A DNA stretch of 64,000 nucleotides from positions 1-64,000 of the forward strand of contig NZ_JAAKEC010000007.1 in assembly GCF_011038975.1 (NCBI RefSeq). Direction: 5' to 3'. Below are positions 39,646 to 51,852 of the stretch, piece by piece; the first letter of the stretch is position 1, and each line of letters begins with the position of its first letter. This DNA is from Adlercreutzia sp. ZJ176. GTDB lineage: Bacteria > Actinomycetota > Coriobacteriia > Coriobacteriales > Eggerthellaceae. The position numbers were made by a program, and so were the translations under genes. The notes beneath the pieces are model-generated. The model worked only from the letters and a program-made list of their open reading frames with translations, did not search any database and had not been told where the DNA came from.

Positions 39646-42033
39646 ATGTCTGACACGGTCGAGTACCACTGGGGCGAGACCAACGGCAAGCAGTACAAGC
39701 GCGGATCGCGCCTGCCGAAGAAGACGGACACGGTGCCCGCCGCACCCGCGGCCAAGACGCCGGACGTACCCTGGACGTGGGAGGAAGACGGCATGACCGT
39801 CATCCGCGGCACGGCGAGAAGCGCCCCGGGATGCCACAACGTCTGCGGCATCCTGTCCTACGTCAAGGACGGCAAGCTCGTGAAGGTGGAGGGCGACCCG
39901 GAGGACCCCTACAACCAGGGGCGCCTGTGCAGCCGCTGCCTGTGCATCCCCGACTACGTCTACCACGAGGATCGTCTCCTGTACCCCATGAAGCGCGCCC
40001 GCGAGGACCGCGGCAAGGACAAGTTCGAGCGCATCACGTGGGACGAGGCGTATGACATCATCGTGCGCGAGTTCAAGAAGGTCGCCGACGCCTACGGCGC
40101 CGACAAGATCGCCATGTGCCAGGGCACGGGACGCGACATCCACCAGGTGACGCGCCTGAACGCCTGCATGGGCTCCCCGAACGAGGGCGTGCCCTACTTC
40201 GCCGGCAACTCCTGCTACCTGCCGCGCATCGCGTCGATGGCCTGCATGCTCGGCGGATCGTGCGTCATGGACTGCTCGCAGTTCCTCCCCGAGCGCTACG
40301 ACGACCCGCGCTACGTGGTGCCCGAGTACTGCATCATCTGGGGCCACCAGCCCTTCTACTCCAACGCCGACGGCTTCTACGGCCACTGGATCCTCGACCT
40401 CATGAAGCGCGGCATGAAGATCGCCGTGGTCGACCCCAAGCTCACCTGGATCGCGGCGAAGGCCGGCGAGGACTGGCTGCGCGTGCGCCCCGGCGGCGAC
40501 GGCGCGCTGGCCATGGCCATGCTCAAGGTCATCTGCGACGAGAAGCTCTACGACCAGGACTTCTGCGACAAGTGGGTCTACGGCCTCGAAGCCGTCTGCG
40601 AGCGCGTGGCCGACATGGACCTCGACGACCTGTGCGAGAAGGCCTGGGTCGCCAAGGAGGACGTCATCCGCGTGGCGCGCACCTACGCCGCCTCCAAGCC
40701 CGCGGCCATCCAGTGGGGCGTGGCCCTCGACCAGCAGACCGGCGGCCAGCAGGCGGCGCACGCCATCACCGCCCTGTGGTGCATCACCGGCAACCTCGAC
40801 GTGCCGGGCGGCAACGTCATGGCCGACGCGTGCTGGGGCATCGAGCAACCGAACTGGGTCGGCACGTGGGGCTGGGACGAGCTCATGACCCCCGAGGAGC
40901 AGGCGAAGCGCATCGGCATCGAGCGCTACCCCATGTTCGCCGTGGGCTTCAAGAACCTCTCCTCCAACGCCACCATCGAGGCGTGGCAGCGCGGCGAGAT
41001 CCCCATCCGCGCGGCCTACATCACCACCAACAACTTCCTCGCCACCATGGGCGCGCAGGCCATCCAGCAGCTCGAGTGGTACAAGCAGCTCGACTTCTGC
41101 GTGGTGTCCGACCTGTTCATGACCCCGACCATGATGGCGCTCGCCGACGTGGTCCTGCCGACCGCCACCTACGAGGAGCGCAACGGCTTCGGCGGCCTCA
41201 ACGCCTACCGCATCAGCTGCATCAACAAGGCCATCGAGCCCGTCGGCGAGACGAAGGCTGACAACACCATCTTCCTCGAGCTCGGCAAGCGCCTCACCGA
41301 CGCCATCAAGCCCGAGAACAACGACATCGCCTGGCCATGGGACACCGTCGAGGAGATGTGGGACTACGCGCTCGAGGACGGCGGCTTCACGTGGGAGGAG
41401 CTGCGCGAGGCAACCTGGAAATACCCTGAGTTCAAGTACCGCAAGTACGAGACGGGCGACCTGCGCCCCGACGGCGGCCTCGGCTTCCGCACCGAGACGG
41501 GCCGCGCGGAGATCTACTCCATGGTGTTCCACCACACCTCGTGGTCGGGCCTCGACCCGCTGCCGAGCTACGTGGAGCCGGTGGAGAGCCCCTACTCCGC
41601 CCCCGAGGACGTGGAGGAGTACCCCTACGTGGTGACCTCCGGCGCGCGCGTGCCGCACTTCTTCCACTCCGAGCAGCGCCAGGTCAAGAAGCTGCGCGCC
41701 CTGCACCCCGACCCGCTGTGCTACATCCACCCCGAAACCGCCGCCAAGCACGGCATCGCCGAGGGCGACTGGATGTGGCTCGAGAACAAGCACGGCAAGT
41801 GCAAGTACAAGGCCGCCTTCGACGACGCCTACGACCCGCGCGTCATGCAGTGCGAGCACGGCTGGTGGTTCCCCGAGCGCAAGGACAAGGCCGAGGAGAA
41901 CGTCGAGAACGAGATGGACGGCCTGTTCGGCGTGTTCGAGTCCCAGATCAACAACCTCGTGCCCTTCGACGCGGGCGTATCGGGATTCGGCTCCAACTAC
42001 AAGTCCATGATGTGCAAGATCTACCGGGCCTAG
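39646..42033 (+). CDS. Molybdopterin oxidoreductase, cytoplasmic (pair 3)
   Basis: A 795-residue catalytic subunit of the DMSO-reductase superfamily. The 4Fe-4S ligands are C63, C67, C95 and C98 (PGCHNVC, LCSRC). The candidate metal ligand is C190 in AGNSCYLPR. Downstream motifs include WGHQPFYSNADGFYGHW, VRPGGDGALAMAM, GNLDVPGGNV and the C-terminal GARVPHFFHSEQR and HGWWFPE. A hydrophilic N-terminal extension of about 40 residues has no twin-arginine signal. ATG at 39646 follows CGGAGGAG. It heads an operon with ferredoxin, then a small protein, an amidohydrolase and an MFS carrier. It is probably a reductive dehydroxylase or related enzyme for an aromatic substrate (inference). Confidence 0.9.
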   Translation: MSDTVEYHWGETNGKQYKRGSRLPKKTDTVPAAPAAKTPDVPWTWEEDGMTVIRGTARSAPGCHNVCGILSYVKDGKLVKVEGDPEDPYNQGRLCSRCLCIPDYVYHEDRLLYPMKRAREDRGKDKFERITWDEAYDIIVREFKKVADAYGADKIAMCQGTGRDIHQVTRLNACMGSPNEGVPYFAGNSCYLPRIASMACMLGGSCVMDCSQFLPERYDDPRYVVPEYCIIWGHQPFYSNADGFYGHWILDLMKRGMKIAVVDPKLTWIAAKAGEDWLRVRPGGDGALAMAMLKVICDEKLYDQDFCDKWVYGLEAVCERVADMDLDDLCEKAWVAKEDVIRVARTYAASKPAAIQWGVALDQQTGGQQAAHAITALWCITGNLDVPGGNVMADACWGIEQPNWVGTWGWDELMTPEEQAKRIGIERYPMFAVGFKNLSSNATIEAWQRGEIPIRAAYITTNNFLATMGAQAIQQLEWYKQLDFCVVSDLFMTPTMMALADVVLPTATYEERNGFGGLNAYRISCINKAIEPVGETKADNTIFLELGKRLTDAIKPENNDIAWPWDTVEEMWDYALEDGGFTWEELREATWKYPEFKYRKYETGDLRPDGGLGFRTETGRAEIYSMVFHHTSWSGLDPLPSYVEPVESPYSAPEDVEEYPYVVTSGARVPHFFHSEQRQVKKLRALHPDPLCYIHPETAAKHGIAEGDWMWLENKHGKCKYKAAFDDAYDPRVMQCEHGWWFPERKDKAEENVENEMDGLFGVFESQINNLVPFDAGVSGFGSNYKSMMCKIYRA

Positions 42034-42061: not shown

Positions 42062-42406
42062 ATGGCTTATCAGGGAATTCTGGTTGACGTCAACTACTGC
42101 ACCGGCTGCGAGGCGTGCGTCTTGGCCTGCCAGCAGGAGAAGGGCTACTCCGAGAAGGAGTTCGGCATCACGATCAGCAAGCTCGGCCCCTTCCACATCG
42201 AGCCCGACAAGAAGCACTACGAGTACGACTTCATCCCCCAGTTCACCGAATGGTGCGACCTGTGCGGGGAGCGCCTCGCGAAGGGCAAGAAGCCGTCCTG
42301 CGTGCAGATGTGCCAGGCGCAGTGCATGGAGTGGGGCGACGTCGCCGAGCTGGCGAGCAAGGTCACCAGCCCCAAGCAACACGTCATCTGCATCCGCGAG
42401 GCTTAA
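42062..42406 (+). CDS. Two-cluster 4Fe-4S ferredoxin subunit
   Basis: A 114-residue ferredoxin partner of the pair 3 enzyme, 28 bp downstream of it. Cysteines at 13, 16, 19, 23 (CTGCEACVLAC) and 65, 68, 80, 84 (CDLC, CVQMC) bind two 4Fe-4S clusters. An extra Cys lies at 88. ATG follows GAGAGGAGAG. No membrane anchor gene follows. Confidence 0.9.
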   Translation: MAYQGILVDVNYCTGCEACVLACQQEKGYSEKEFGITISKLGPFHIEPDKKHYEYDFIPQFTEWCDLCGERLAKGKKPSCVQMCQAQCMEWGDVAELASKVTSPKQHVICIREA

Positions 42407-42568: not shown

Positions 42569-42748
42569 ATGGGAATGGAAGACATCGTCGAGCGTCTCGA
42601 CCACGTTGACGTGCGCGCGCCGCGCGAGTTCAGCCACACGGTCACCCCGCTTGAGCGCGAGCAGGGCCGCATCGACTGGCGCGTGCGCAACTCCGAGAAC
42701 ATGCAGAAGATGAAGACCCATACCATCAACGACATCTACCAGAAGTAG
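42569..42748 (+). CDS. Small charged protein, unknown (59 aa)
   Basis: A 59-residue protein (start MGMEDIVERLDHVDVRAPRE) that is hydrophilic, mixed in charge and without cysteine. The ATG follows GAGGAAGG at good spacing. It lies between the ferredoxin and the amidohydrolase in one direction. I do not recognise it. It could be a subunit or regulatory peptide of the pathway. Confidence 0.65.
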   Translation: MGMEDIVERLDHVDVRAPREFSHTVTPLEREQGRIDWRVRNSENMQKMKTHTINDIYQK

Positions 42749-42878: not shown

Positions 42879-43937
42879 ATGGCAGACAACAAGATCATCG
42901 ACATCAACATGCACTTCTTGCCCACCGACCTCTTCACCAACGAGGAGGTGCTCAACGGGTTTCTGTACTCCGCCCCCATCACCATGGGCCTGAAGGCCTA
43001 TCGCGGCAAGACCCCCGACGGCGCGAAGGACCAGATCGTGCTTGCCACCGAGGACGGCAAGGACATCCTGAACTACGTGGAGGGCGACTACACGCTCGAG
43101 ACGAAGCTCAAGGCCATGGACGAGGTGGGCGTCGACATCGCCCTTTTGCGCATGCCGGTGTGGCAGGAGTGGCTGCCGCTCGACATGTGCAAGATCGTGA
43201 ACGACCAGGCCGCCGAGATGTGCCGCCAGTCGGAGGGCCGCCTCTACGCCAACGCGGTGCTCCCGCCGTGGGGCCGCAAGGAGGACATCTACGAGCTGGA
43301 GCGCTGCCTGGGAGAGCTCGGCATGGTGGGCGTGCAGTTCGCCTGCAGCTACGGCGACAAGTTCCTCGACGACGAGCTGTTCAAGCCCTACCTCAAGGTG
43401 CTCAACGACAAGAAGGTGCCCTGCGTCATCCACCATACGCCCGGCCAGAACGCCTTCGGCAACTTCGCCGACTACACGCCGCTGCGCCGCGAGCTCGGCC
43501 GCATCCACGTGCAGGCCGCCGCGGTCGGCCGCGAGATCTACTCGGGCATGTTCGACGAGTTCCCTGACCTCAAGTTCATCCACACGATGTTCGGCGGCAA
43601 CTGGTTCGCGCTCAAGGACCTGCTCGCCCCGCACGTGTCGGTGAAGAAGAAGGAGGCCATGAACCGCCTGGCCACCAACGTCGACCGCGAGGCGTACGAC
43701 CGCTACCTGCAGAACAACATCTACTTCGACATGACGCATCCCATGAGCTGGAGCAAGGATCAGCTTGAGCTCGCCGTGAAGGCCTGCGGTGCCGACCACC
43801 TGCTGCTGGGCTCGTCGTTCCCGGTGTTCTACGAGTGGATGGCCCGCTCGGTGGGCTCGGTGAAGGCCCTCGACGTCACGCAGGAGGAGAAGGACCTCAT
43901 GCTGGGCGGCAACGCGGCGCGCATCTTCAAGCTGTAA
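42879..43937 (+). CDS. Amidohydrolase_2 family protein with altered metal site
   Basis: A 352-residue TIM-barrel protein of the amidohydrolase-2 family, which includes ACMSD and the gamma-resorcylate and 5-carboxyvanillate decarboxylases. The first motif reads DINMHFLP (N10, H12), where family members have HxH or ExH. The second and third histidines are present (VIHHTPG, H185/H186; FIHTMFGGNW, H235). The position of the conserved metal-binding Asp reads LLLGSSFPV (S313) instead of GSDYP. Two of the usual five ligands are thus replaced. ATG follows AAGGAGG. Context suggests decarboxylation or hydrolysis of a hydroxylated aromatic acid, or a non-catalytic or metal-independent role. Confidence 0.85.
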   Translation: MADNKIIDINMHFLPTDLFTNEEVLNGFLYSAPITMGLKAYRGKTPDGAKDQIVLATEDGKDILNYVEGDYTLETKLKAMDEVGVDIALLRMPVWQEWLPLDMCKIVNDQAAEMCRQSEGRLYANAVLPPWGRKEDIYELERCLGELGMVGVQFACSYGDKFLDDELFKPYLKVLNDKKVPCVIHHTPGQNAFGNFADYTPLRRELGRIHVQAAAVGREIYSGMFDEFPDLKFIHTMFGGNWFALKDLLAPHVSVKKKEAMNRLATNVDREAYDRYLQNNIYFDMTHPMSWSKDQLELAVKACGADHLLLGSSFPVFYEWMARSVGSVKALDVTQEEKDLMLGGNAARIFKL

Positions 43938-43997: not shown

Positions 43998-45476
43998 ATG
44001 AGTAATCCCAATGCTGCCGCAGCGGGCGCTGCGGCAAAGCCCGTCGAGAAGACCCCGTCGTACGCGTGGGCCTGCCTCGCCGTGTCGCTGCTGGCGGCCG
44101 TGTCCATCGTGTTCTCGTGGATGTGGCTCCCCGGCATCACGTTCCCGGTGTTCAAGAACTGGCTGGCGGCCAACAACCCGCTGTTCCAGAACCCGGCGAA
44201 CTTCAGCCTGCTGTCCAACGTCATGGGCCTCGTGCCCATCGGCGCGCTCATCATGGCGCTTCCCACCACGTTCATCGTGCGCAAGTGGGGCGCCAAGGTC
44301 GGCACGCTCACCGGCCTCGCGCTCGCCATCGTCGGCACCGCGATCAGCGCCGCCACGGTCGGCTCGAACTTCTACGTGTTTTTGGCCGGCCGCTTCATCC
44401 TCGGCCTCGGCCTGTCCACCACGGTAGTCTCCGGCCCCACCTGCGTGTCCATCTGGTTCCCGGACTCCACGCGCGGCCGCGCCATGGCCATCTGGTCATG
44501 CTGGGCCCCCATCGGCATCTTCCTGTCGAACTTCGTGAACGACGGCGTCTACAACCTCGTCGGCCAGTCCATGAACAACCTGCAGTGGGTGTGGTGCGCG
44601 CTCATCGTCGTCGTCGCCATCGCGTTCGCCGTGCTGTTCCGCGCGCCGCGCGAGAACGAGCGCTCCCAGGTCTCTCCCGAGCGCAAGCCGCTCAAGGACG
44701 TGCTCGTGTACTTCAAGAGCCGCCAGCTGTGGTGCCTCATCATCATGTTCGTGATCTTCAACTACATGAGCTACGCGTTCTCCCAGTACCTCAAGACCTG
44801 GCTGCAGACGCCTGAGCTGCTCGGCGGCTTCGGCTGGGACGCCACCACCGCCGGCCTGTGGGGCGGCCTGATCTGCGCCTGCGGCGCGCTCGCGCCCATC
44901 GGCGGCCTGATCCTGGACAAGACCCCGCGCGACAAAAAGTACATCTGCGTGGTCGTGGGCATCATCGGCCTGACCATCTGCTCTGCGCTCGCCTTCAAGG
45001 CCGAGTTCTTCATCCCCTACGTGCTGTTCTTCTGCATCGGCAACATGATGCTGAACGCCTGCTGCCGCCCGCTCGTCCCGACCTTCGTGTTCAGCGGCGG
45101 CCAGACCGCCGTGGCCTTCGGCCTCTCGCTGCTGACGCTCGGCCAGTACGCCGGCCAGATCGCCACGAGCTACGTGCTCGCCCCGTTCAACGAGGGCCTC
45201 ACCGCCGCCTCTAACGTGGCCATCAACGCCAAGGTCGCCGTGCTCGCCAGCGGCGGCACCCCGGCCGACTTCGGCCCCGCCATCGGCGCCGCCGTGCAGG
45301 AGGCCATCGGCCAGGGCATCCACGTCGACCCGATGCTCGCCTTCTGGGCGCTCGTGCCGGTCGGCATCGTGGGCATCATCCTGAGCCTCGGCGTGAAGCC
45401 GGCCAAGAAGCCGGCGGGCGCTGGCAAGCCCGAGGGCAAGCCTGAGGGCAAGCCTGAGGGCAAGCCGGCCGCGTAA
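43998..45476 (+). CDS. MFS transporter (pair 3 operon)
   Basis: A 492-residue carrier with 12 predicted helices, similar in plan to the carrier at 52060-53388. Both have a WFPD(S/K)TRG motif in the loop after helix 4 and a W(S/C)CW(A/V)P helix 5. The C-terminal tail is a short repeat of GKPE units. ATG follows CCAAGGAGGGG. It lies 60 bp downstream of the amidohydrolase. It probably imports the substrate of the pair 3 pathway, or exchanges it for product. Confidence 0.88.
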   Translation: MSNPNAAAAGAAAKPVEKTPSYAWACLAVSLLAAVSIVFSWMWLPGITFPVFKNWLAANNPLFQNPANFSLLSNVMGLVPIGALIMALPTTFIVRKWGAKVGTLTGLALAIVGTAISAATVGSNFYVFLAGRFILGLGLSTTVVSGPTCVSIWFPDSTRGRAMAIWSCWAPIGIFLSNFVNDGVYNLVGQSMNNLQWVWCALIVVVAIAFAVLFRAPRENERSQVSPERKPLKDVLVYFKSRQLWCLIIMFVIFNYMSYAFSQYLKTWLQTPELLGGFGWDATTAGLWGGLICACGALAPIGGLILDKTPRDKKYICVVVGIIGLTICSALAFKAEFFIPYVLFFCIGNMMLNACCRPLVPTFVFSGGQTAVAFGLSLLTLGQYAGQIATSYVLAPFNEGLTAASNVAINAKVAVLASGGTPADFGPAIGAAVQEAIGQGIHVDPMLAFWALVPVGIVGIILSLGVKPAKKPAGAGKPEGKPEGKPEGKPAA

Positions 45477-46290: not shown

Positions 46291-46408
46291 ATAAGGGGCG
46301 CGGACGCGATTGTACTCAGGATGACGTAAGAGGAGGCGCGGCGTGACGCTCCGCTCGGATGATAGCGAGGCACGACGTTCCGCTCGAGACGAGAAGAACT
46401 CCCCACGT

Positions 46409-46532
46409 GTCATCCTGAGCGAGCGAAGCGAGTCGAAGGATCCGGCCCCGAGAACGACGCGCCCGCATGCGACACTCAGCCGCAACCAGATCCTTCGACT
46501 CCGCGCCCTTCGGGCGCTCCGCTCAGGACGAC
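46409..46532. repeat. Dispersed long palindromic repeat, copy 3
   Basis: A full-length copy with GTCATCCTGAGCGAGCGAAG at the left and a right end that reads CTCAGGACGAC. It lies just upstream of the LuxR promoter. The gap 46214-46618 is filled by this copy, the half copy at 46244 and the LuxR promoter. Confidence 0.85.
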
Positions 46533-46576
46533 ATAAGGGCGCGAAATCGAGGGGACCCCAGACGCGCGGCCTGCGC

Positions 46577-46582
46577 TATAAT
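46577..46582 (+). promoter_or_regulatory. -10 box of the luxR-type gene
   Basis: A perfect TATAAT lies 37 bp before the start codon. No clear -35 is found at 17 bp upstream, suggesting activator dependence. Confidence 0.55.
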
Positions 46583-46618
46583 CCTCGGTGCGTTACCACG
46601 AGGGGGAGGAAAGGCAGC

Positions 46619-48109
46619 ATGACTGGCGTCGAGTCTGACGAGCAACGAGGCGTATCGGCGATGGAGCTTCTGGGCATGGTGGGGTTCGCCCTGCTCATGG
46701 GCTGGATGCTCGTGTCGTTCTACTGGCTGTTCTGCGACTTTCCGCCCGGCGTGCCCGTTGACGCGCGCGACTTCGCGCAGATGTGGATCTTCGTCGGCAC
46801 GCCCGCAGGCTACGCGACCCTCCACGCGCTCGGCAAGCTGCCGCAGTTCAACCTGTTCGCGCTGCCGGGCATCGCGGTGGGGCTCGTGGGCAGCGTCGCT
46901 TTGCCCCTCATGGCGTTCGCCCTGTACGGCGGCGTGCACGCCCCGCTGGGCCTGATCTGCGCCGTGAACTTCCTCGCGGGACTGGCGTTCGCCTACCTCA
47001 ACGTGGCATGGCTTGACGTGTGCAGCCGCCTGAGAACGCTCCAGTACGGCCGCTTCACCGGGCTCGCGTTCGCCGGCGGCGTGCTTCTGTTCGGCCTGGC
47101 GGCCATCTCACCCGAGACCGCCCAGCCCACCTTCATCCTCATCTACATCCTCTGCTCCACGGGCCTGCTCGTGTTCGCCAGCGAGCGCGCCGACGGCAAC
47201 GCCGAGCGCGCGCCGCTCGAGTCCACGGCTGACACCTGGCGCTTCACCGCCGAGATCGAGCCTTCGTTCTTCATGTTCGGCGTGGTGTTCGCGCTCACCT
47301 TCGTGTACCTGTTCAACTTCGGGCAGACCTACGTCCTCGCGGGGCTTCTGTTCGCGCTGCCGGGCGGGCTGCTCATCGCCGTCCTCTCCATGCTCCACCG
47401 CGAGATCGGCATCACCTCCATCCAGCGCATCCTCACCTTCGTCACCGTGGCCGCCTGCATTGCCACGCCGTTTTTGGAAGGGTGGATGCAGCTGGGCTGC
47501 TCGTGCGTGGTGATGACCGCATGGGCGCTGTTCACGTGCGTGAACAGCGCGTTCATCGTGAAGAAAAGCGTGTCGGTGCGCGACGTGCCGCTGTTCCGCC
47601 AGGCTCCGATGCGCCTGTGCGTCACAGCGCTCGGGTTCGCCGCCGGCTGGGTCATAGCCACGGTGGCCACGATGGCCTTCGGCGCGCACGCCGAGGCGTT
47701 CACCACCATCCGCCTCGTGGTGGCCATCGCGCTCGTGGCCACCGTCATGGCGTTTCTGCCCGTGAAGAGCCACCACGAGGTCGACGGCAGCTCGCCGGAC
47801 GAGAGCGACCGCGCGAGGGCGACCACCACGGTGGTGAGCGTGTCGATGAGCGAGGCGGAGCTCTTCGAGGCGCGCTGCGCGGCCGTGGCGAAGCTCTACC
47901 AGCTCTCGCCGCGCGAGTCCGACATCCTGAAGTTCGTGGCGAAGGGCCGCAACGCCGCCTACATCCAGGAGAAGCTCACCATCTCCCCGCACACCGTGAA
48001 GAGCCACATCTACAACATCTACCGCAAGCTCGACATCCACTCCCAGCAGAAGCTCATGGACTTCGTGGAGGAGTTCCCCCTCGACGCGGACGACATCGCA
48101 TCACGCTAA
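46619..48109 (+). CDS. Membrane-bound LuxR-family regulator
   Basis: A 496-residue one-component regulator. Residues about 15-400 contain around 10-12 hydrophobic helices. The last 70 residues form a LuxR/FixJ-type HTH (YQLSPRESDILKFVAKGRN, then TISPHTVKSHIYNIYRKLDI). This architecture is common in Eggerthellaceae, where such genes sit next to inducible molybdoenzyme operons. ATG at 46619 follows GGGGGAGGAAAGG. It lies between the two plus-strand molybdoenzyme operons and probably senses their substrate in the membrane. The DNA target may be the shared element at 39273-39313 and 48180-48223. Confidence 0.9.
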   Translation: MTGVESDEQRGVSAMELLGMVGFALLMGWMLVSFYWLFCDFPPGVPVDARDFAQMWIFVGTPAGYATLHALGKLPQFNLFALPGIAVGLVGSVALPLMAFALYGGVHAPLGLICAVNFLAGLAFAYLNVAWLDVCSRLRTLQYGRFTGLAFAGGVLLFGLAAISPETAQPTFILIYILCSTGLLVFASERADGNAERAPLESTADTWRFTAEIEPSFFMFGVVFALTFVYLFNFGQTYVLAGLLFALPGGLLIAVLSMLHREIGITSIQRILTFVTVAACIATPFLEGWMQLGCSCVVMTAWALFTCVNSAFIVKKSVSVRDVPLFRQAPMRLCVTALGFAAGWVIATVATMAFGAHAEAFTTIRLVVAIALVATVMAFLPVKSHHEVDGSSPDESDRARATTTVVSVSMSEAELFEARCAAVAKLYQLSPRESDILKFVAKGRNAAYIQEKLTISPHTVKSHIYNIYRKLDIHSQQKLMDFVEEFPLDADDIASR

Positions 48110-48179: not shown

Positions 48180-48223
48180 AAGCCTCATACCAACGTACTG
48201 ATTCCTCTCTTTGCATACTCATG
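48180..48223 (+). promoter_or_regulatory. Upstream element shared with the 39646 operon
   Basis: This is the second copy: AAGCCTCATACCAACG (48180-48195), 14 bp, then TTTGCATACTCATG (48210-48223). It lies 211 bp upstream of the pair 4 molybdoenzyme and 70 bp downstream of the LuxR gene. The flanks are not conserved between copies, so this is not a long duplication. The rest of 48110-48433 has no gene. Confidence 0.5.
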
Positions 48224-48433
48224 TGGCTATGGTGCGCACCAGCGGGCGTGCCATACTCACCGCAGCCTTTCGGGGGAAGGTCGCTCGGGGAAGACACCTG
48301 GGCGCCACGCTCCCCTGGCCGCGCGAGGCAGACACTCGCACGGCTACGAGGCTGGCGGACAGGACGCCGCGCCGGCCTCGCAAAGGACCGCCCGGAGCTC
48401 TCGCGCCGGGCGCACCATACGAGAGGAGTTGCG

Positions 48434-50809
48434 ATGGTAGAAACCACAATCGAAGCCAAAGACCGCGACGATATTGGTACCACCAAAGAGGAGAACCAAT
48501 TCAACTTCGGTGCTGGCGAGCGACCCGAGATGCAGGACTGGAAGCACCCCGGTGAGTGGCAGTACATGGAGGACGGCATGCTCGTCACCCGCACGTCCGT
48601 GTGGTCGGCCCCTGGCTGCCACGAGGGCTGCGGCGTGCTGGTGTACTCCGACCCGGAGACCGGCCGCTTCATCAAGTGCGAGGGCGACCCGGACGACCCG
48701 TACAACCGCGGCGCGCTGTGCCCGCGCTGCCTGGCCTTCAAGCAGGTCGAGTTCCACCCCGATCGCATCCTGTACCCCATGAAGCGCGCCGGCGAGCGCG
48801 GCGAGAACAAGTGGGAGCGCATCTCGTGGGACGAGGCGCTCGAGACCTGCTACAAGGAGTTCCGCCGCATCGCGATGACCTACGGCGGCGACTCCATCCA
48901 CTGCCTGCGCGGCACCGCCCGCGACAACCAATGGCAGGTCGGGCGCATCGCGAACACGATGGGCTCGCCCAACGAGTACGGCTTCCTGTCCGGCACCGCC
49001 TGCTACCTGCCGCGCCTGTCGCTCATGATCATGACGTACGGCGGCATGCTCATCGCCGACTTCTCGCAGTTCACGGCCTTGCGCTATGACGACCCCGAGT
49101 GGGTGTGCCCCGAGTGCACCATCGTCTGGGGCTGCAACCCCACCATCTCCAACCCCGACTTCTTCATGGGCCACTGGGTGACCGACGCCATGAAGCTCGG
49201 CTGCAAGCTCATCTCCGTCGAGCCGCGCGTGACCTGGCTCGCCGCGCACGCTGACATCCACCTGATGCTGCGCCCCGGCACCGACACGGCGCTCGCGCTC
49301 GGCATGATCAAGGTCATCGTGGACGAGGATCTCTACGACCACGACTTCGTGGAGAAGTGGACCTACGGCTTCGACGAGCTGGCGGCGCGCGCCCGCGAGT
49401 TGTCGCTCGACGAGGTTGAGAAGATGACCTGGGTCCCCAAGGAGAAGATCATCGAGGCCGCGCGCATGTTCGCCAACGCCCACCCGGCCAACGTGGTGTG
49501 GGGCCTGGCCGTCGACATGCAGTCCCAGGGCACGCCCTGCGCTGCCGCCATCGCCGCGCTGTGGACGATCACCGGCAACCTCGACATCCCCGGCGGCATG
49601 TGCTACACCGCCGCCCCCATGGGCGTTGACCAGCCCTCCGCAGGCGCCTGGGGCATCTACGACCTCATCGACGAGGAGACGCAGAAGAAGCGCGTCGGCT
49701 GGAAAGAGTACCCGATGTACCGCTACGGCCTCACCCAGGCCATGCCGGACATGTGCCTCGAGGTGTGCGAGGCCGGCGGCGTGAAGGGCGTCTGGATCCA
49801 GACCTCCAACGGCATCGCCTGCATGAGCTGCGAGACCGACCGCTGGTACAAGGCCATGAAGAAGCCCGAGTTCATCGCGGCCTGCGACGTGTTCATGACC
49901 CCGACCATCCAGTCCTGCGCCGACATCGTCATGCCGGTCCAGACCTGGGCTGAGAAGCACTCCGTGCGCGCGCACTACTACTTCCTGTCCGCCATCACCG
50001 GCGGGTGCGCGGCCGAGGGCGAGGCGCTCTCCGACTGCGAGATCAACCGCCGCCTCGCGCAGTACTTCGACAACGACGACGAGTTCAACAAGGCGATCAA
50101 CCGCCCCGAGGGCAAGCAGCACACCTGGCCGTGGGCTACCGAGGACGAGGTGTACGACGAGATCGTCAAGCCCTCCGGCTTCACCTTCCACGAGCTCATG
50201 AAGCAGGGTCCGGTGTACCAGAAGTACGTCTACAAGAAGTACGAGAAGGGCCTCATGCGCCCCGACGGCCAGCCGGGCTTCAACACCCCCACCGGCCGCA
50301 TCGAGTTCTACTCCACGCTGTTCGAGGCGTACGGCTACGATCCGCTGCCCTACATCGAGGAGCCGGGCATCGGGCCGGTGTCCACGCCCGACCTCTACGA
50401 GGAGTACCCGCTCATCATGATCACGGGCGCGCGCACCACCTCGTTCTTCCACTCCGAGCATCGCCAGATCCCGTACCTGCGCCAGCTCACCCCCGACCCG
50501 TGGGTGCAGATCAACCCCAAGACCGCCGCTGAGCACAACATCAACGAGGGTGACTGGGTGTGGATCGAGAACCACCGCGGCCGCTGCCGCCAGCGCGCCC
50601 GCATCACCTACGAGGTGTCCGAGAAGGAGATCGCCGCGCAGCACGGCTGGTGGTTCCCCGAGCAGGACGGCGCCGAGCCGAACCTGTACGGCTTCCGCCA
50701 GTCCAACATCAACCAGCTCCTGGCGAACAAGCCCGGCCGCACCGGCTTCGGAGCTGACCTAAAGTGCACCCTGTGCAAGATCTACCGCTGCAGCGAGGAG
50801 GACCTGTAA
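48434..50809 (+). CDS. Molybdopterin oxidoreductase, cytoplasmic (pair 4)
   Basis: A 791-residue paralogue of the pair 3 enzyme. The 4Fe-4S ligands are C62, C66, C96 and C99 (PGCHEGC, LCPRC). The segment that reads SCY in the other three enzymes is TACYLPR here (C190 kept, preceding Ser replaced by Ala). Molybdopterin motifs include WGCNPTISNPDFFMGHW and LRPGTDTALALGM, and the C-terminus has GARTTSFFHSEHR and HGWWFPEQDG. There is no export signal. ATG follows AGAGGAG. The stop overlaps the ferredoxin start (TAATG), showing tight coupling. It is likely a dehydroxylase or other reductive enzyme of the same kind, with a different substrate from pair 3 (inference). Confidence 0.9.
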   Translation: MVETTIEAKDRDDIGTTKEENQFNFGAGERPEMQDWKHPGEWQYMEDGMLVTRTSVWSAPGCHEGCGVLVYSDPETGRFIKCEGDPDDPYNRGALCPRCLAFKQVEFHPDRILYPMKRAGERGENKWERISWDEALETCYKEFRRIAMTYGGDSIHCLRGTARDNQWQVGRIANTMGSPNEYGFLSGTACYLPRLSLMIMTYGGMLIADFSQFTALRYDDPEWVCPECTIVWGCNPTISNPDFFMGHWVTDAMKLGCKLISVEPRVTWLAAHADIHLMLRPGTDTALALGMIKVIVDEDLYDHDFVEKWTYGFDELAARARELSLDEVEKMTWVPKEKIIEAARMFANAHPANVVWGLAVDMQSQGTPCAAAIAALWTITGNLDIPGGMCYTAAPMGVDQPSAGAWGIYDLIDEETQKKRVGWKEYPMYRYGLTQAMPDMCLEVCEAGGVKGVWIQTSNGIACMSCETDRWYKAMKKPEFIAACDVFMTPTIQSCADIVMPVQTWAEKHSVRAHYYFLSAITGGCAAEGEALSDCEINRRLAQYFDNDDEFNKAINRPEGKQHTWPWATEDEVYDEIVKPSGFTFHELMKQGPVYQKYVYKKYEKGLMRPDGQPGFNTPTGRIEFYSTLFEAYGYDPLPYIEEPGIGPVSTPDLYEEYPLIMITGARTTSFFHSEHRQIPYLRQLTPDPWVQINPKTAAEHNINEGDWVWIENHRGRCRQRARITYEVSEKEIAAQHGWWFPEQDGAEPNLYGFRQSNINQLLANKPGRTGFGADLKCTLCKIYRCSEEDL

Positions 50810-51168
50810 TGGCACGCAATGGTATTTTGGTTGACTATCAGTTTTGCACCGGCTGCTACTCCTGCGAGGTAGCCTGCCAGGCCGAGCACGAGCTGCCGCT
50901 CGAGCAGTGGGGCGTGAAGGTCATGCAGAACGGCCCGTGGCCCATCAAGGACGCCGAGGGCAACCCCACCGACCGCTACGTCTACGACTTCATCCCGTCG
51001 TTCACCCGCATCTGCGACCTGTGCGCCGAGCGCCTCGAGAAGGGCAAGCTCCCCTCGTGCGTGTTCCACTGCCAGGCTAAGTGCATGACGTTCGGCCCCG
51101 TCGACGAGCTGGCACGTAAGCTCGACGACAAGTCCGAGCAGTACCTGTGGGTCCCGCCCTGCGCCTAA
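50809..51168 (+). CDS. Two-cluster 4Fe-4S ferredoxin subunit
   Basis: A 119-residue ferredoxin, translationally coupled to the pair 4 enzyme by a 1-nt overlap. Cysteines at 13, 16, 19, 23 (CTGCYSCEVAC) and 69, 72, 84, 88 (CDLC, CVFHC) bind two clusters, with an extra Cys at 92. It is cytoplasmic. Confidence 0.92.
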   Translation: MARNGILVDYQFCTGCYSCEVACQAEHELPLEQWGVKVMQNGPWPIKDAEGNPTDRYVYDFIPSFTRICDLCAERLEKGKLPSCVFHCQAKCMTFGPVDELARKLDDKSEQYLWVPPCA

Positions 51169-51291: not shown

Positions 51292-51852
51292 ATGAAGATA
51301 GACGAGCTGAAAGCGCAGGTCGACGCCTCCCCCGTCGGCGACCGCGCAACCCTGCAGAAGATGTTCCTCTACGCCACCGCAGGCGGCGCCGTCCTGCCCT
51401 GCTTCGCCGCCTATCTCGAGCGCTCAAGCACCTACCAGGAGTTCTTCAACGAGATCTACCGAGACGAGAGCCAGAAGCGCACGCTTCTGTGGGCCGAGTG
51501 CGCCAAGCTCAGCCGCCGCAACTGGCTGGCCTTCTTCGAGCCGAAGATGCTCATCGAGAAGCTGCGCATGAAGACCGACGGCCTGCCCATCCAGATGGGC
51601 TCCGCAGTCATGCTCGCGCCGACGGGAAGCCGCGACAACATCGCGAACCTCTACGTGTTTCCTGCTGACGGCTTCAACCAGAAGGCCGCCGAGTTCGTCA
51701 CCTCGATCGGCGGCAAGTTCACCGTGGCCGACTACGACTTCTTCGGCATCTACGGCCTGTACAAGTACCGCGGGAGCGTCATCTTGGAGGAGTGGCAGGT
51801 CGAGGCCGAGCCGACGTACAACCCCGAGCCTGAGGGGCCCTGCCGCCGATAG
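51292..51852 (+). CDS. Conserved-looking protein of unknown function (186 aa)
   Basis: A 186-residue soluble protein that starts MKIDELKAQVDASPVGD. A helical first half (about residues 20-90, with LLWAECAKLSRRNWLAFFEPKML) is followed by a mixed second half (VMLAPTGSRDNIANLYVFPADGF; GKFTVADYDFFGIYGLYKYRG). There are only two cysteines and no recognised motif. ATG follows AAAGGAGAG. It is in the same direction as the pair 4 enzyme and the MFS carrier, so it may be a chaperone, a substrate-handling protein or a third subunit. I do not recognise the family. Confidence 0.8.
   Translation: MKIDELKAQVDASPVGDRATLQKMFLYATAGGAVLPCFAAYLERSSTYQEFFNEIYRDESQKRTLLWAECAKLSRRNWLAFFEPKMLIEKLRMKTDGLPIQMGSAVMLAPTGSRDNIANLYVFPADGFNQKAAEFVTSIGGKFTVADYDFFGIYGLYKYRGSVILEEWQVEAEPTYNPEPEGPCRR

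Follow-up and report, generated by a model that had tools for sequence, protein, structure and literature searches.

A predicted ellagic acid-converting amidohydrolase of Adlercreutzia with replaced metal-site residues

The Amidohydro_2 gene at 42879-43937 of the window (the whole 64,000-nucleotide stretch of Adlercreutzia sp. ZJ176 DNA analysed here) is, by synteny and alignment, an ortholog of Eah, the enzyme that converts ellagic acid to urolithin M5. Its protein aligns with metal-dependent decarboxylases of the same fold and carries Asn10, Met237 and Ser313 at canonical positions of their active site. With a probability of roughly 0.6, Eah would open the lactone and decarboxylate its substrate independently of a metal, the roles suggested for individual residues being tentative. 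The function is already known for the ortholog (December 2025); what is new is an enzyme without the chemistry assigned to its family.

Metal-dependent decarboxylases of the amidohydrolase type hold one divalent metal through a Glu or His in β1, a His in β5 and an Asp in β8, in every member tabulated (PMC7894528), which bears out the statement of the initial annotation that known decarboxylases of the family need the residues replaced here. The metal chelates the carboxylate and the ortho phenol, and the rate is limited by proton transfer from the β8 Asp to the ipso carbon (PMC7894528). Equivalences in the window protein were read residue by residue from a profile alignment to solved decarboxylases (2dvt, 4icm, 4qs5). 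Its β1 motif is D-x-N10-M-H12 and the β1 Glu/His ligand is absent, so that the annotated replacement of HxH/ExH by N10-M-H12 is seen in both the open reading frame and the alignment. The annotated Ser of the G-S-S313 motif, in place of the metal-binding Asp, likewise holds, as S313 aligns with D287 of γ-resorcylate decarboxylase (2dvt) and D297 of LigW (4icm). The accompanying claim that the other two His positions are kept is right for β5, where H185 aligns with H164 (2dvt) and H174 (4icm), and wrong for β6, where the active-site His is lost to M237; the His meant was probably H235, two residues earlier. On these alignments three canonical positions are replaced, not two. No other residue takes over the ligand places, there being no Asp, Glu or His at the β8 or first β1 position and H235 lying two residues off the β6 one. 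Judged from its residues, Eah combines Asn, His and Ser with a Met at the β6 His, and therefore the standard metal-dependent mechanism cannot operate in it as written.

The replacements define a subfamily. N10, H185-H186, H235-x-M237 and S313 occur in all members examined (28/28), which cover four phyla and 40-96% identity. N10, H12, H185, H186, H235, M237 and S313 are invariant among 22 aligned sequences, namely the window protein and 21 relatives from the genome collection. A wider alignment adds plasmid-borne relatives from Thioclava (L085) and Enterococcus raffinosus (L086) at 40-41% identity; here H12 alone varies among the listed site residues, and in the E. raffinosus protein, where it is Tyr, H185 is the sole remaining canonical ligand. 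Sequencing error at both positions, which would have undone the annotation, is ruled out by the presence of the replaced residues in 28/28 members, and chance is rejected on the same invariance down to 40% identity. The subfamily signature reads N-x-H or N-x-Y, HHTP, H-[ST]-M and G-[STA]-S-[FY]-P. Among the 20 nearest Amidohydro_2 proteins outside the subfamily, the β8 Asp is present in 20/20 and the Eah pattern in 0/20; nearly all have the β6 His, and one has Gln. An Amidohydro_2 protein of Gordonibacter sp. 28C (L069, 9562-10479) shows Gln for the β6 His (GQLGG) with the Asp kept and a LuxR-like gene near.

In a maximum-likelihood tree a branch supported at 100/100 separates the 28 subfamily members from the other sequences, with long outside branches that make the sister group uncertain, and the window protein groups with those of Gordonibacter and Ellagibacter in one clade at 100/100. 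Sequences intermediate between Eah and the metal-site enzymes were not found in 396 Actinomycetota, 348 genomes of the phylum of an Eubacteriales MAG (L036) and 247 of the phylum of L037. In the Actinomycetota search, matches at E 1e-179 or better are followed by nothing above 1e-25; in the other two phyla, there is a drop from about 1e-190 to at best 1e-36.

Eah of Gordonibacter sp. 28C was expressed in E. coli and purified, and in HEPES/NaCl at pH 7.0 it produced urolithin M5 from ellagic acid (PNAS 2025, PMC12771579). The same work describes 13 clustered genes that rise more than 1,000-fold with ellagic acid, and the eam (ellagic acid metabolism) cluster is known from Gordonibacter and Ellagibacter (PMC12771579). 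As its main text gives no accession, the 28C gene is named Eah here by synteny and annotation: of six Amidohydro_2 genes in that genome, it alone has beside it a group of molybdoenzyme, 4Fe-4S, MFS and LuxR genes that agrees with the published eam. The gene for the second molybdoenzyme is found at the beginning of another contig, consistent with a cluster interrupted by the end of a contig. The five other Amidohydro_2 genes, read with 14-20 kb flanks, were rejected as Eah, their surroundings being free of eam molybdoenzymes; around the C5 gene (L069) there are a LuxR gene at some distance and a molybdoenzyme match of only 27-28%. The same cluster is found in G. pamelaeae and Ellagibacter isourolithinifaciens, both urolithin producers (PMC12771579). 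The window protein is 82% identical over 352 aa to the product of the syntenic 28C gene, and its assignment as an Eah ortholog with the Eah reaction is very nearly secure, the activity being predicted from orthology and synteny. The ellagic-acid-type substrates proposed by the initial annotation were well chosen, although it overlooked that the protein is a named enzyme belonging to a described cluster.

A complete eam gene cluster surrounds the window gene, with two eadh molybdoenzymes, 4Fe-4S, MFS and LuxR near eah (Table 1). It shares with the cluster of Gordonibacter sp. 28C the two molybdoenzymes, the 4Fe-4S proteins, MFS, LuxR and the same replaced Eah residues, whereas the second MFS, isomerase-like and SufS/SufE-like genes of 28C are missing from it. 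In 28C, apparent L-fucose-isomerase-like and SufS/SufE-like proteins, recognized by eye, lie between MFS and LuxR (L065, 14686-18368).

Table 1. Active-site codons of the window protein and genes of the surrounding eam cluster (window positions)
Feature	Position	Strand	Basis or remark
eah ortholog, Amidohydro_2 protein, 352 aa; predicted ellagic acid to urolithin M5 enzyme	42879..43937	+	ORF, Pfam, synteny, alignment; PMC12771579 for function of the Gordonibacter sp. 28C ortholog
Codon N10, position of first β1 metal ligand (Glu or His in family)	42906..42908	+	Subfamily alignment; ligand table PMC7894528
Codon H12, second β1 His; kept here, Tyr in E. raffinosus L086	42912..42914	+	Alignment
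Codons H185-H186, β5; H185 = metal-ligand His, H186 in place of a non-His residue	43431..43436	+	Profile alignment
Codon H235, new invariant His in β6	43581..43583	+	Alignments
Codon M237, position of β6 active-site His (H218 in 2dvt, H227 in 4icm)	43587..43589	+	Alignments
Codon S313, position of β8 metal-ligand/proton-donor Asp (D287 in 2dvt)	43815..43817	+	Alignments
Molybdopterin oxidoreductase A, eadh-type catechol dehydroxylase; ORF opens 39514	39646..42033	+	83-91% identity to copies beside eah in other Eggerthellaceae
4Fe-4S protein adjoining molybdoenzyme A	42062..42406	+	
59-aa small protein, between 4Fe-4S gene and eah in nearly all eam loci	42569..42748	+	51-83% identity; no Pfam family
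MFS transporter	43998..45476	+	
Membrane LuxR-type regulator, true start uncertain	46343..48109	+	
Molybdopterin oxidoreductase B, second eadh; homology from near 48311	48221..50809	+	89-90% identity in Gordonibacter and Ellagibacter
4Fe-4S protein adjoining molybdoenzyme B	50809..51168	+	
186-aa protein, cluster end	51292..51852	+	Kept in several eam loci

The same genome holds a second eah copy on contig C44, 74% identical to the window protein and with the same replaced residues. It belongs to a second eam-like group (L071, 11575-16961) composed of the eah copy, a molybdoenzyme A copy (85%), 4Fe-4S (70%), MFS and LuxR; a molybdoenzyme B copy was not found in the 20 kb read near it, and the 59-aa gene is absent there. 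In the tree, this copy clusters with Adlercreutzia murintestinalis. At the DNA level the window eah is 93-94% identical to Gordonibacter copies versus about 80% to the copy in an apparently same-genus genome (L026). Both window molybdoenzymes are about 90% identical to L026, unlike eah, which suggests from these identities that eah was replaced within the cluster by a Gordonibacter-type copy.

The window reading frame is directly preceded by an AGGAGG-type ribosome-binding site on the + strand, and its product belongs to Pfam Amidohydro_2 (PF04909) at 75.2 bits against a curated cut-off of 26.4; no NCBIfam model matches it. An AlphaFold2 model (mean pLDDT 81, pTM 0.84), of low confidence in two active-site loops (residues 189-200 and 239-264), has the ACMSD-type distorted (β/α)8 fold, with Z of about 31 to 4eri, 2hbv and 4l6d. 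ACMSD (2-amino-3-carboxymuconate-6-semialdehyde decarboxylase) is the top fold match (Z 31) at 21-22% identity, and is a Zn-dependent enzyme with His/Asp ligands. γ-Resorcylate (2,6-dihydroxybenzoate) decarboxylase 2dvt resembles Eah in fold (Z 31), in the β5 His equivalent to H185 and in aromatic decarboxylation; it differs in having E8 at N10, D287, both ligand and proton donor, at S313, and H218 at M237. The 5-carboxyvanillate decarboxylases LigW and LigW2 (4icm, 4qs5) share the fold and are the best sequence matches among solved structures (4qs5 profile E 5e-22). Unlike Eah, they are Mn-dependent (PMC7894528), with the β1 Glu, β6 His and β8 Asp. The residue opposite S313 is N336 in the 4qs5 chain and Asp in its sister chain 4inf.

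In the proposed mechanism, Eah would open one lactone ring of ellagic acid and the freed carboxyl would be lost as CO2, yielding urolithin M5; dehydroxylation of this product would then fall to the two molybdenum enzymes encoded on either side. The (β/α)8 barrel of the ACMSD/LigW/γ-resorcylate decarboxylases would be retained and its metal site dismantled at N10, M237 and S313. Lactone opening and ipso-protonation would proceed by general acid-base catalysis in a rebuilt polar cluster of N10, H185, H235 and S313, with H12 and H186, and the invariant arginines R203, R204, R208 and R218 would hold the phenolate and carboxylate. The initial annotation had left the choice between a different metal geometry, a metal-free mechanism and a binding protein. 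The metal-free reading is favored because the Asp that serves as both ligand and proton donor is lost, and because the E. raffinosus member has also parted with H12. The assay conditions given for purified Eah in the main text are HEPES/NaCl, with no metal listed (PMC12771579). That text labels Eah a metal-dependent decarboxylase on InterPro annotation (IPR032465) only and contains no metal or active-site analysis; the literature searched yielded neither a metal analysis of any Eah nor a mention of the loss of its metal-site residues. Against metal independence, recombinant Eah could carry metal from E. coli, and H12 and H185 of the window protein could hold a metal together with H235 or H186.

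The latter possibility leads to the main rival, a changed geometry in which Eah is still a metalloenzyme and H185 with H235 or H186, perhaps joined by H12 and N10, binds Zn, Mn or Fe at a relocated site. The invariance of H185, H186 and H235, and the near invariance of H12, would fit such a site, as would the changed metal sites of neighboring families in the fold list (AibH1H2, SfbO). We nevertheless consider it rather unlikely: the E. raffinosus member has Tyr for H12, H186 should by strand register face away from H185, and the enzyme no longer has the β8 acid by which metal and substrate are bridged. A second alternative concerns the reaction and is compatible with either metal status. Here, Eah would be a decarboxylase only, with no lactonase activity, and would act on luteic acid produced by spontaneous lactone opening. 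The lactones of ellagic acid do open slowly in water at raised pH, the solved homologs are aromatic or muconate decarboxylases, and aerobic members of the subfamily are located in aromatic ring-cleavage operons. Conversion was, however, seen at pH 7.0, where spontaneous opening should be slow, and a look for results on luteic acid found none; this alternative likewise appears to have the smaller part of the probability. A weak metal at the old site, held by N10, H12, H185 and S313 in an enzyme that works like γ-resorcylate decarboxylase with another acid, is improbable: H12 and H185 do occupy their customary positions, but both acidic or His ligands and the β6 His are lost in all members, and H12 is lost in E. 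raffinosus as well. A catalytically dead binding or sensor protein, for which the loss of canonical catalytic residues might speak, is scarcely credible given that the syntenic 82%-identity ortholog is an active enzyme (PMC12771579) and that the replacement residues are themselves invariant.

Returning to the metal-independent reading, precedents exist for parts of the chemistry. LigI (2-pyrone-4,6-dicarboxylate lactonase) is an amidohydrolase-superfamily lactonase reported to be metal-free, and keeps the β8 Asp as catalytic base. That base is absent in Eah, and LigI is set beside it by description only; LigI was not among the 50 fold matches listed nor among the solved-structure sequence matches, and absence from a list proves nothing. 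The fungal gallate decarboxylases AGDC1 and PPP2 decarboxylate gallic acid by cofactor-independent acid-base catalysis (PMC7862292). As a parallel in chemistry, they show that a polyphenolic acid can be decarboxylated without a cofactor; unlike Eah, they are described as founding members of a separate group with an H86-D40 dyad (PMC7862292). More broadly, there is about an even chance that Eah represents a cofactor-independent clade of amidohydrolase-fold decarboxylases/lactonases, in which Ser, His and Asn would have taken the place of the metal site as a new acid-base site, S313 perhaps serving as the nucleophile, for lactone opening and decarboxylation. This clade would extend over gut Coriobacteriia, Streptomyces, other Actinomycetota, Acidobacteriota, Bacillota and Pseudomonadota.

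Relatives of Eah in Streptomyces and other actinobacteria (57-63% identity) and in Thioclava (41%) lie in an operon in which an FAD monooxygenase, a DUF3500 protein, a dienelactone hydrolase and a DUF4440/NTF2-like protein stand beside the Eah-like gene, together with FAH-family hydrolases, RraA-like aldolases and, in some cases, ring-cleavage dioxygenases. The operon is conserved at five loci (L038; L039 in Streptomyces; L040; L085 in Thioclava; and L112) covering Actinomycetota and one Pseudomonadota genus. Its gene content suggests breakdown of aromatic compounds under aerobic conditions, the probable part of the Eah-like enzyme being decarboxylation of an aromatic acid or lactone. This operon is absent around the relatives in the Eubacteriales MAG, an Acidobacteriaceae MAG and E. 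raffinosus. In the Eubacteriales MAG, fragments of a second, broken eah-like gene directly follow the intact copy (L036, 9084-9406). The E. raffinosus protein (40%, H12 to Tyr) is encoded on a megaplasmid (L086, 9998-11038) and present in three plasmid records; its gene neighbors a LysR regulator, two hypothetical proteins and a beta-glucoside PTS gene. A strain of Enterococcus faecium has been reported as a urolithin A maker (PMC9682137).

In the human gut, Eah catalyzes the first reaction by which ellagic acid, a compound of berries and nuts, is turned into urolithins, and the novelty of the present finding lies in its mechanism. If Eah is metal-free, it would be a natural cofactor-free counterpart, in the same fold, of the metal-dependent decarboxylases of the superfamily, and would allow a direct test of how an enzyme dispenses with the metal and the catalytic Asp. 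Polyphenolic acids could then also be decarboxylated with a catalyst that needs no cofactor. The conserved signature separates eah genes from ordinary amidohydrolases in metagenomes, and also points to an uncharacterized aerobic pathway in soil bacteria.
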